This document shows, one piece after another, positions 46,055-49,572 of a stretch of DNA of 64,000 bases. The DNA comes from Lachnospiraceae bacterium (GTDB taxonomy: Bacteria; Bacillota; Clostridia; Lachnospirales; Lachnospiraceae), in assembly GCA_022794265.1 (NCBI GenBank), contig JAAWEK010000001.1, positions 1 to 64,000 of the forward strand. Direction: 5' to 3'. The position numbers and the translations under genes are program-made. How positions within the stretch are numbered: position 1 is the stretch's first letter; each line of letters begins with the position of its first letter. The notes beneath the pieces were generated by a model. It saw nothing but the letters and a program-made list of their open reading frames with translations. It ran no database searches and was not told where the DNA came from.

Positions 46055-46621
46055 TTATTCTTCTATTCCAATACGGGAACAGATACCTTTTTCAAAGGGA
46101 TGTTTTACACTGTGAATTTCCGAAACATAATCTGCAAGTTCCAGTAATGCCGGACGGGGATTGCGTCCGGTTAAAACCAGTTCCAGATGAGCTGGTTTCT
46201 TTTTTACAAACTGAATCATCAATTCTTCCGGAACCAGTTTTAAATCTATGGCAACGTTGATTTCATCCAGAATCAGCATATTATAATTATCGTTGGAAGC
46301 AGTCTGCATGGCATCCGTCAGCAATCGGGTGTAGAATGCGGCAGCTTCCTCTTTTTCACTTTTTGACATATTCCATATAAATCCGAAATCTCTGAATGTC
46401 TCAATAACATTGATACCTGGAATTGTTTTTAAAATATTTAATTCGCTGGAAGCTTCATTTTTCAGAAATCTTGCAATCAGGATGCGGTATCCCGCACCGG
46501 CCATACGGATGGCAAGGCCCGTAGCTGCAGTGGTTTTTCCTTTACCGTCACCACAGTAAATATGAATCAGGCCAAGATTCTGATTGTTGGAATTTGCAGA
46601 GGTTATATAATTTGATTTCAT
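46055..46621 (-). CDS. cobO: Corrinoid adenosyltransferase (CobA/CobO/BtuR type)
   Basis: A 188-residue P-loop protein transferring the adenosyl group of ATP to the cobalt of reduced cobalamin or cobyrinate diamide. The Walker A is IYCGDGKGKTTAATGLAIR; LILDEINVAIDLKLV and LVLTGRNPRPALLELADYV are family hallmarks, with the terminal HPFEKGICSRIGIE. ATG 46621 is chosen because AAGGTG lies eight bases upstream; GTG 46633 is an alternative inside that site. It lies directly downstream of the riboswitch-controlled surface-protein gene on the same strand, consistent with a cobalamin scavenging role. Confidence 0.93.
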   Translation of the reverse strand: MKSNYITSANSNNQNLGLIHIYCGDGKGKTTAATGLAIRMAGAGYRILIARFLKNEASSELNILKTIPGINVIETFRDFGFIWNMSKSEKEEAAAFYTRLLTDAMQTASNDNYNMLILDEINVAIDLKLVPEELMIQFVKKKPAHLELVLTGRNPRPALLELADYVSEIHSVKHPFEKGICSRIGIEE

Positions 46622-46687
46622 TTTTTTTTGCACCTTTTTATTATTTAGAAAAATTCAGAAAAACCGGATATGGGTCTAAAACGAAAG

Positions 46688-46716
46688 ACGGGCAGAAGCA
46701 ATCCCTTCTTACCCGT
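46688..46716. terminator. Terminator-like hairpin between surface-protein gene and cobO
   Basis: ACGGGCAGAAG pairs with CTTCTTACCCGT with one bulge. A T-run follows on the plus strand and a weaker CTTTCGTTTT on the minus strand, which is the direction of both flanking genes. Confidence 0.65.
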
Positions 46717-46750
46717 TCTTTTTTAACACTGTATAACAGATTCTTTATTG

Positions 46751-48043
46751 CTATTTACCAGTTAATACGCTTTTACGCGTTAACATAACGGCTCCTGTTG
46801 ATAATATACATAATGTTAGAAGAATGACAGTCATACTGCCATTTTCTCCGGTTTTTGCGGAACTATTGGAAGCAGTAGTAGTTTCCGGTGTTTTTTTATC
46901 TGGTATTGCAGTGGTAGTATCCGTATTTATTTCCGAAACAGTTGTATCAGCAGTACTGTCGGTTTCGCTGAAAGAATCGGCGGTGGTAGTTTCATCCTGA
47001 CCGGAGGTTTCTTCCGGCTGTTCCGGCGACAGTATACGGGTAACTTCATTGGTTACATCAAAAGGAAATCCTTCATTGTCCATCAGCATCTTATATGCAA
47101 TCAGGCCTTTAAGAGCATCGACGGTGGCAAACATATTGTCTTCTCCAAAATAGGTATATGCTCCCGGTGTAAGAATGCTTTTAAAGTTCAGTAAAGCATT
47201 GTAGGAAATTCTGTTATTTTCATTCTTTAAAAGGGAATATAAATAAAGCGCCGCACCAGTGGAATTCGCGTTGGAAGTGGTGGAATATTCTCCGTTATCA
47301 AACCGGGAGCCGCCGTCTTCCATAATCAGAGACTCATTAAATGTTATAGCATCGGCAATGGCATCCGCGATTTCTTTGTGGTCGGAAAAATAATTCAGAG
47401 CCGGAAGAACAGCTGCATTATTATCGCCGGATATGCCCCAGTAATCAATTCCACAGCCGGTCTCTGTTTGTTTGTAATTAATCATGATGGCATTCTGGAG
47501 AAGCGTTTTAATGGTGTCGGAGTGTTCCATATAATCTTCATAAGCAAATACGGCAGGCACGATAAAATCATAATAATATGGATTTTCAACCGCAGTATTT
47601 AATTCTTCTGCAGTTGCATAGGACGCAAGAAGCTGATCAAAAGCTTCTGCCATATTGTTTCCGTTTACGTCTAATGCATTACTGCCATGCAGGGCAAGAA
47701 CGATTAAATAAGCGGCATACATAGTTATGTTTTCGGAACCGTTAATCAGAAGTCTGCCATCTGTAATATTGGATTCCAGCAGATTACAGTAACGGTCTGC
47801 CAGGTCTCCGGAATCGATGCCGGAACGCAGAATCAGGATGACTTCCTTATAGTTGTATGGACTGATTTCCGTAGTGTTCAGCGCATTTAAAAGATATCCG
47901 GCTGTTGTGGAAACTTCACGGTTTACATCTGTAAATTCCGGAGATTCCTCTGCATAAATGCATGTGAAATTTGCAAGCATTAATGACAATGTTAATATAA
48001 CAGTCAAAAAGATTGCGGTTGGTTTGTTGGTTTGTTTTGTCAT
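46751..48043 (-). CDS. Riboswitch-controlled, wall-anchored alpha/alpha-barrel surface protein, possible cobalamin binder
   Basis: A 430-residue secreted protein. The signal peptide spans about residues 1-31 (ends CIYA). Residues about 38-340 form repeated helices with prenyltransferase/terpene-cyclase-like segments (CGIDYWGISGDNNAAVLPAL, NANSTGAALYLYSLL). This resembles the alpha6/alpha6 barrel of human intrinsic factor and transcobalamin. A Thr/Ser/Glu-rich stalk (341-394) leads to KTGE at 397, a hydrophobic helix (404-421) and a basic tail, a sortase-like anchor. The leader contains a cobalamin riboswitch, and cobO follows. I infer a surface corrinoid-capture protein; binding itself is not shown by the sequence. 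AAGGAGG lies before the ATG. Confidence 0.8.
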   Translation of the reverse strand: MTKQTNKPTAIFLTVILTLSLMLANFTCIYAEESPEFTDVNREVSTTAGYLLNALNTTEISPYNYKEVILILRSGIDSGDLADRYCNLLESNITDGRLLINGSENITMYAAYLIVLALHGSNALDVNGNNMAEAFDQLLASYATAEELNTAVENPYYYDFIVPAVFAYEDYMEHSDTIKTLLQNAIMINYKQTETGCGIDYWGISGDNNAAVLPALNYFSDHKEIADAIADAITFNESLIMEDGGSRFDNGEYSTTSNANSTGAALYLYSLLKNENNRISYNALLNFKSILTPGAYTYFGEDNMFATVDALKGLIAYKMLMDNEGFPFDVTNEVTRILSPEQPEETSGQDETTTADSFSETDSTADTTVSEINTDTTTAIPDKKTPETTTASNSSAKTGENGSMTVILLTLCILSTGAVMLTRKSVLTGK

Positions 48044-48114
48044 GTTTCATCCTCCTTAAACTTTGGGCAGTACCCATATTCACAGAGGTGAGAGATCCTC
48101 ACCGATTACTGTTC

Positions 48115-48254
48115 CATGCTGACAGATATCCTGACTTATAGCTTATCCTAGTACCCGGCCTTCCCGGAAATTTCCAGTGGCAGATTCGGGATTCGTATCT
48201 AAATACAGTAGAGTGAGCTGTTACGGATTCTGACCGTATTCCCATATCAGCATG
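48115..48254 (-). promoter_or_regulatory. Cobalamin riboswitch
   Basis: Read on the minus strand: P1 arm CATGCTGA (48254 onward), GGGAA then GGTCAGAATCC, ACAGCTC, the conserved core GCCACTG and GGGAAGGC (near 48180-48150), and the B12 box AAGTCAGGATATCTGTC, closed by TCAGCATG (to 48115). Between aptamer and start codon, GGTGAG-CTCACC (48087-48103) and GGG-CCC hairpins could mask the ribosome site, and no strong T-run is seen, so control may be translational. When cobalamin is abundant the gene should be off. Confidence 0.9.
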
Positions 48255-48300
48255 TTTTTAGCTGATTATTATCAGCATGTTTCTGGCTGATTATTATCAG
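48246..48300. repeat. 25-base tandem repeat overlapping the riboswitch P1 strand
   Basis: Units 48246-48270 and 48271-48295 differ at two positions and a third copy begins at 48296. Each holds a CAGCATG/GCTG hairpin-like segment. The first unit contains the 5' P1 strand of the riboswitch, so the P1 half is duplicated upstream. Confidence 0.85.
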
Positions 48301-48337
48301 CAATTGTCTGTGTTTTTGTTTTTACACAGCATGTAAT

Positions 48338-48366
48338 ATGATAAATCCTTCAGGAATTAAAGTCAA
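48338..48366 (-). promoter_or_regulatory. Promoter of the cobalamin-riboswitch transcript
   Basis: On the minus strand TTGACT (48366-48361) and TATCAT (48343-48338) are spaced by 17 bases, about 80 bases ahead of the aptamer. A CTGTGT/ACACAG hairpin (48308-48329) lies at the expected 5' end of the RNA. Confidence 0.65.
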
Positions 48367-48531: not shown

Positions 48532-49572
48532 ATGATCAAAACCATACTTGGAGATATCACAAAAATTGATTTAGCTGAGGCGATTGTCAATGCCGCCAAT
48601 TCCAGCTTACTGGGCGGTGGCGGAGTGGACGGTGCCATTCACAGGGCAGCGGGACCGGAATTGCTGGAGGAATGCAGAAAACTTCATGGCTGTAAAACAG
48701 GGCAGGCTAAGATTACAAAGGCATATCAACTGCCCTGCAAATATGTTATTCATACGGTGGGACCGGTCTGGAATGGCGGAGTGCTAAATGAGGAAGAGCG
48801 GCTGGCGGACTGCTACCGCAACTCCCTGCTGATTGCAGTACAGAATAATATCAGAACAATTGCTTTTCCATCCATTTCTACAGGAATATACAGGTTTCCG
48901 GTGGAACAGGCTGCAAAGATTGCAGTCCGCACCGTAAAGGAGTTTTTAGATAAACATCCAGGGAAGATTGATGAAGTTATCTGGGTATTGTTTGACGAAA
49001 ATACGGAGAAGATATACCGTCAGGCTGTAGAAGACTCATCGAAATACAAATTAAGCCGGAAATTAAAGTTTGGACTGGCGCAGGAGCAAGACAGGATAGA
49101 AATCATGAATCTTTATGGCAGTATGATTGGGGTAAAAGGATGTACCTGGTCCAGGGAATATCCCAACATGGAATTATTAATCAGAGACATAAAAAATGAG
49201 AATGAATTCTGTATGAGAAATGAGGCGGATGATATCATTGCCGCCATTGTAATTGATGAAGATGAAGAAGTCAGAAAACTTCCGTTCTGGAATCCGGATT
49301 ATAAAAAAACAGGGGAACTGGCAAGACTGGCTGTACGGCAGGATTATCAGAATCAGGGAATTGCAGTTAAAATGATTCAGGAGACTGCTGGGATTATGTG
49401 GGAGCGCGGATACGATGCCATACATTTTCTGGTGAGCAGGAACAATCCTGCGGCGCTGGCCAGTTATCAGAAACTGAATCTGCATTTGGCAGGAGAAACC
49501 AATTTATTTGGAGGAAACTGGTTATGCTATGAGGGGCTGATTAGGGATAAAATACTGAATGAAAGGGAATAA
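48532..49572 (+). CDS. Macrodomain-GNAT acetyltransferase fusion
   Basis: A 346-residue two-domain protein. Residues 1-165 are a MacroD/YmdB-type macrodomain: GDITKIDLAEAIVNAANSSL, GGGGVDGAIHRAAG, HTVGPVW and SISTGIYRFP, which bind and hydrolyse ADP-ribose esters such as O-acetyl-ADP-ribose. Residues about 175-346 are a GNAT domain with LARLAVRQDYQNQGIAVKMI (acetyl-CoA loop) and SRNNPAALASYQKL. The fusion couples deacylation of ADP-ribose and acetyl transfer in one chain; the substrate of the GNAT half is unknown. ATAAGGAG precedes the ATG. Confidence 0.88.
   Translation: MIKTILGDITKIDLAEAIVNAANSSLLGGGGVDGAIHRAAGPELLEECRKLHGCKTGQAKITKAYQLPCKYVIHTVGPVWNGGVLNEEERLADCYRNSLLIAVQNNIRTIAFPSISTGIYRFPVEQAAKIAVRTVKEFLDKHPGKIDEVIWVLFDENTEKIYRQAVEDSSKYKLSRKLKFGLAQEQDRIEIMNLYGSMIGVKGCTWSREYPNMELLIRDIKNENEFCMRNEADDIIAAIVIDEDEEVRKLPFWNPDYKKTGELARLAVRQDYQNQGIAVKMIQETAGIMWERGYDAIHFLVSRNNPAALASYQKLNLHLAGETNLFGGNWLCYEGLIRDKILNERE

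Follow-up and report, generated by a model that had tools for sequence, protein, structure and literature searches.

Known and predicted cobalamin-capture systems and the locus studied

Animal B12 carriers consist of an alpha/alpha barrel followed by a beta-grasp domain, which corresponds to Pfam DUF4430 (PMC4350170 and PMC1796856, both cited from excerpts). The excerpted text of Burroughs, Balaji, Iyer and Aravind (2007; PMC1796856) describes bacterial proteins that combine a toroid with a transcobalamin-like (SLBB) domain, are secreted or surface-located in low-GC Gram-positives, and are encoded in the same operons as CbiO- and CbiQ-like genes. The same excerpt states that their hosts are usually without key B12 synthesis enzymes, predicts B12 scavenging, and proposes low-GC Gram-positives as the source from which animals gained such proteins. 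CbrT was characterised as a B12 S component in 2018, after that prediction, and in Lactobacillus delbrueckii it sits in nrdJ-cbrS-cbrT-pduO (PMC5997447, excerpted; structure 6fnp). Here we analyse the first 64,000 nucleotides (hereafter the window) of contig JAAWEK010000001.1 from Lachnospiraceae bacterium assembly GCA_022794265.1, where a cobalamin riboswitch precedes a gene for a secreted barrel protein and cobO lies downstream on the same strand, as originally predicted in both layout and coordinates. The protein encoded there is likely the barrel portion of a corrinoid-capture system that resembles intrinsic factor but is split in two.

BtuG and BtuH of Bacteroides are outer-membrane lipoproteins of another fold that feed BtuB, and they resemble the proposed window system in capturing corrinoids at the surface for an importer. 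B12 capture ahead of energy-coupling factor (ECF) transporters in Gram-positives is little explored. One survey (PMC6593275, excerpted) found known B12 transporters in almost half of the human gut genome variants that are auxotrophic for B12. The original prediction spoke of a new scavenging strategy, an idea that already stands in Burroughs et al. (2007). What appears to be new, in a searched literature that mostly excluded subscription journals, is the link to riboswitches, the link to CbrT and a deeply divergent clade with a split locus. The word riboswitch has no occurrence in the text of PMC1796856, and both riboswitch and lipoprotein are absent from that of PMC5997447. No experimental paper on these bacterial barrel proteins was found among the matches listed in that literature.

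Fold of the barrel protein

An AlphaFold2 model of residues 27-345 of the window protein is an alpha/alpha barrel (predicted local distance difference test 80.6, predicted TM score 0.84). Among PDB structures, Foldseek ranks rat transcobalamin first, and human intrinsic factor superposes on the model at 3.0 A over 236 residues. AlphaFold2, Foldseek and VIA-align, used as a check set beforehand, bore out the predicted likeness to transcobalamin and intrinsic factor, and the animal carriers (intrinsic factor, transcobalamin and haptocorrin) are the best Foldseek matches. In one bacterial barrel-DUF4430 fusion that was also modelled, transcobalamin, intrinsic factor and haptocorrin outrank all other PDB matches.

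Sequence alone cannot place the window barrel, since a single-sequence search of the PDB gave only luciferase noise (E 1.6) and a 6-row profile reached squalene-hopene cyclase at E 1.3. Pfam has an animal cobalamin-binding family, to which the window protein has no match at E <= 1; its single Pfam match at that threshold is Nlp36 (E 0.16). A barrel hidden Markov model matches one of the 346 open reading frames (ORFs) of the window, the 430-aa protein (E 1.6e-7); the rows of this model contain neither the window protein nor its close relatives but were recruited through searches seeded with window-type sequences. A second barrel profile (A6), which includes the window protein itself, matches it at E 6.2e-45. 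The terpene-cyclase-like repeats in the original prediction are clear across the wider barrel family, but the window sequence by itself gives a weak match (TIGR01787, E 0.024).

Animal carriers and the bacterial fused relatives have the barrel and DUF4430 in one chain. In contrast, DUF4430 is absent from all 346 ORFs of the window, and hence from the chain of the barrel protein, so the analogy with intrinsic factor holds for the barrel domain and fails for the second domain. A 60-row DUF4430 profile had no PDB match at E <= 1; the link to the beta domain therefore rests on Pfam DUF4430, on the excerpts of PMC4350170 and PMC1796856, and on structure matching. Also unlike the animal carriers, the window barrel has a stalk, a C-terminal anchor and an upstream riboswitch. 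The N-terminus reads as hydrophobic. The predicted Thr-rich stalk is present as a Thr/Ser/Glu-rich stretch, and the proposed KTGE anchor is recognisable in an AKTGE motif followed by a hydrophobic segment and a basic tail; its LPXTG_anchor score is below the cut-off (Table 1). Judged from these residues, the C-terminus may be a membrane anchor or a weak sortase signal, which leaves wall anchoring uncertain.

Riboswitch, leader and cobO

The leader of the barrel gene matches the whole cobalamin riboswitch model RF00174 (positions 1-189) and scores above the gathering cut-off of 31.5 bits, a check that was also set beforehand and that agrees with the original prediction. It is the sole Rfam match above the gathering cut-off within the window, and the only RF00174 aptamer in the genome (2.88 Mb, 91% complete). 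In the minimum-free-energy fold, a GGUGAG/CUCACC hairpin (48087-48103) begins directly after the aptamer and excludes a CCUCU/GGAGG pairing that masks the ribosome-binding site at 48051-48055. Because this hairpin excludes the pairing that hides the ribosome-binding site, the modelled expression platform suggests translational control; the fold is not significant (z -1.43, with 20 of 200 shuffles folding equally well). The promoter scan upstream is weak, with 16 sites in the region against a shuffle mean of 7.9.

cobO may be co-transcribed with the barrel gene: a hairpin lies between them (z of the stretch -0.75, not significant), yet the terminator scan gives no terminator on the minus strand between the two genes. 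A cobO-like gene occurs in only two of the 80 related loci described below, in a search limited to relatives of the window type of adenosyltransferase, and the barrels of these two loci are near-identical; the link between barrel and cobO is thus not general.

Remaining parts in the same genome

All parts of the proposed system are encoded in this genome. Its sole DUF4430 match is a 306-aa protein on contig 24 that has a hydrophobic segment at the N-terminus and a stretch rich in Thr and Glu. The gene is followed in order by those for an ECF T component (CbiQ, 30.1 bits), a fused A-A' ATPase (ABC_tran, E 7e-51) and an S component. Pfam assigns the S component to the riboflavin S family and the general ECF family. 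A three-row S profile (this protein and two relatives) has a single PDB match at E <= 1, ECF-CbrT (6fnp, E 1.7e-12), so the S component is a sequence relative of CbrT. No riboswitch was seen at this operon. The linked btuCDF genes envisaged at the outset gave way to this ECF transporter on another contig, and the best genome match for a BtuC-type (FecCD) permease is 20.6 bits, below the Pfam cut-off of 26.5. MetF, a MetH activation-domain protein and MetH are encoded in a row, and MetH is the sole B12 enzyme identified in the genome. CbiD, the one B12-synthesis gene tested, was not found. At 91% completeness, absences in this genome are soft.

Barrel, DUF4430 and riboswitch in related loci

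When the window protein alone was used as query against 299 genomes from the same family, eight matched, including the own genome. This number was rejected as a barrel count because it is an undercount beside the 75 of 299 genomes found with the A6 profile, and some of the eight carry barrels of the other type (G098 and G097 match A6 at 2.1e-122 and 8.4e-60). A second own-genome match in the single-sequence search (contig 13, E 4e-4) was dismissed, as it covers query residues 328-419, the stalk. Two relatives (G218, locus L017, and G050, locus L018) have riboswitch, barrel, DUF4430 protein, ECF T, A-A' and S in order, and so keep the type of operon described by Burroughs et al. (2007), whereas the own genome has these genes on another contig. 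G014 (L015) has riboswitch, barrel and DUF4430, and G109 (L016) has riboswitch, DUF4430 and barrel. RF00174 is above cut-off in the wider loci of five of seven relatives, with none in L019 and L021.

DUF4430 is present in 152 of the 299 genomes: in 72 of the 75 with a barrel and in 80 of the 224 without one (Fisher p 2e-22, which overstates the evidence because the genomes are related). In the three barrel genomes without DUF4430 (G040, G054 and G124), the barrel match itself is weak (E 2.2e-7 to 5.6e-4). DUF4430 lies within 8 kb of 64 of 83 barrel places, which is indicative only, being counted among the matches listed and with weak places and repeats within one genome left out. Under stricter filters, RF00174 occurs in 243 of the 299 genomes, 56 of 75 with a barrel and 187 of 224 without. 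The riboswitch is therefore not commoner in barrel genomes, and its link to the barrel is one of place, not presence.

Eighty public contigs were found through the CbrT-like S component of contig 24; DUF4430 is encoded in 59 of these and the barrel in 53, and 28 have both in one protein. Mapping RF00174 sites to these loci by coordinates only was unsafe because contig numbers differ, and a separate riboswitch model (R1) was therefore built. All 41 R1 matches in the 80 loci lie on the operon strand, including 11 that match by construction, as R1 was trained on 16 sites of which 11 came from these loci. The locus count is 34 when the last seven matches (E 0.0021 to 0.057) are left out. RF00174 was run on 50 of the loci, 29 of which have R1 matches, and the two models agree in place and strand in 25 of these 29. 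The window aptamer, itself in the training set, scores 121.3 bits with R1.

Divergence of the window-type clade and alternative explanations

In a tree of 61 barrels, a clade with 100/100 support and a long stem of 1.76 changes per column unites the window barrel with those of L015-L019, which were selected for their similarity to the window. Where the named relatives on the tree carry a label, it is Bacillota. Of 21 positions at which at least 88% of 56 barrels agree, the window barrel retains four, in an alignment that is uncertain at 12-21% identity, and it has Tyr where the 56 barrels have His. Such a deep clade fits a surface protein that binds a corrinoid other than cobalamin, for instance cobinamide or a pseudo-B12 cobamide, which would explain the loss of conserved barrel residues in a clade with a cobalamin riboswitch beside five of six members. 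Against this stands the B12-type MetH of the own genome, and cobO fits any corrinoid. We regard this explanation, an overlapping variant of corrinoid capture, as doubtful but the strongest of the alternatives.

The split locus, the lost family residues and the transporter operon without a riboswitch could also mean that the barrel survives as a drifting remnant of an earlier system, has its DUF4430 and ECF partners elsewhere and no longer binds corrinoids. We consider this improbable, as the ORF and riboswitch are intact, the fold prediction is confident, and the same clade occurs within the complete riboswitch-ECF operons of L017 and L018.

DXDD is the catalytic motif of class II terpene cyclases; it is absent from the window barrel and present in one of the 56 barrels. 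That missing motif, the position of a surface protein downstream of a cobalamin riboswitch, the family-wide link to DUF4430 and a CbrT-like transporter, and the Foldseek preference for transcobalamin make a secreted terpene-cyclase or polysaccharide-processing alpha/alpha-toroid enzyme, regulated by B12 through chance, very improbable, even though the higher VIA-align Z of the window barrel to terpene cyclases and the match of the wider barrel family to squalene-hopene cyclase in PDB sequences (E 1.6e-16) weigh against corrinoid capture and for an enzyme.

Proposed mechanism

Corrinoid capture is the best explanation for the locus. Computation shows the riboswitch, the fold, all parts within the genome, and the grouping of barrel, DUF4430, CbrT-like S and riboswitches in related loci; corrinoid binding, pairing of the halves, transfer to the transporter, the direction of control and wall anchoring are what we infer from these. 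When corrinoid is scarce, the riboswitch would free translation of the barrel protein, which would be exported and kept at the surface by its stalk and C-terminal anchor, where it would bind cobalamin or a related corrinoid. The membrane-tethered DUF4430 (beta-grasp) protein would supply the second half of the binding site, close it, and hand the corrinoid over for import by way of the CbrT-like S component. CobO would then adenosylate the imported corrinoid for B12 enzymes.

Lacking DUF4430 in its chain, the window protein is not classed here as an intrinsic factor, and its split locus sets it apart from standard members of the 2007 type; as a secreted toroid of the same family, it probably works like both. 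A bolder proposal, to which we give somewhat less than an even chance, is that window-type barrels make up a separate, unclassified clade of corrinoid receptors at the cell surface. They would act in trans as half-intrinsic-factors, and the stalked barrel would catch the corrinoid in the cell wall and close only on meeting the membrane-tethered DUF4430 half at the CbrT-like transporter. If true, this would be a Gram-positive relay with the two halves of human intrinsic factor as independent proteins, of which only the barrel lies behind a riboswitch in the own genome. A transcobalamin-like receptor linked to B12 riboswitches and CbrT makes the 2007 domain prediction a testable pathway.

Features of the window and unusual architectures in related loci

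Table 1. Features of the barrel locus, with positions in the window.
Feature	Position	Strand	Evidence
Promoter-like TTGACT-17-TATCAT upstream of riboswitch	48338..48366	-	Consensus scan, 10/12 matches
Cobalamin riboswitch aptamer RF00174	48104..48291	-	83.6 bits, E 4e-19
Likely expression platform	48044..48103	-	Minimum-free-energy fold
Secreted alpha/alpha-barrel protein, 430 aa	46751..48043	-	ORF
Barrel domain, about residues 31-335	47039..47953	-	AlphaFold2 and Foldseek
Thr/Ser/Glu-rich stalk, about residues 340-395	46859..47026	-	Read from sequence
C-terminal AKTGE, hydrophobic segment and basic tail	46754..46858	-	LPXTG_anchor 14.8 bits, cut-off 15.9
Hairpin between barrel gene and cobO, possible attenuator	46684..46721	-	RNA fold
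cobO/btuR corrinoid adenosyltransferase, 192 aa	46055..46633	-	Pfam PF02572 (CobA_CobO_BtuR), E 2.7e-55

The divergently transcribed neighbour of the barrel gene (48532-49572, plus strand) encodes a macro domain fused to a GNAT acetyltransferase.

Several related loci have unusual architectures. In L020 (G098:C73, 2-2974 and 3002-7108, minus strand), two surface proteins, the first with repeated barrels or DUF4430 and the second with the other, each have a type I dockerin domain and lie behind a weak cobalamin riboswitch (34.5 bits); they may be B12-type receptors that dock on a scaffold. Barrels also lie within open frames of about 2,850 to 3,650 codons (G261:C10, G030:C5 and G227:C17), which suggests giant surface proteins with barrels. 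The order is reversed in L031:3431-6541 and L021:9206-10918, where DUF4430 is ahead of the barrel in one chain.

Four loci encode a secreted protein between the riboswitch and the barrel-DUF4430 fusion (L073:4969-5769, L067:4585-5478, L088:4998-5882 and L105:4982-5824, plus strand). This protein escaped the DUF4430 profile, but by eye it combines a divergent pattern like that of DUF4430 with a second domain. At or just past the riboswitch of three fused-type loci (L073:4508-4918, L067:3958-4584 and L088:4561-5007, plus strand) is a gene for a small basic protein with the pattern PKRxDF...IKxFLGPWPRALEAAG.
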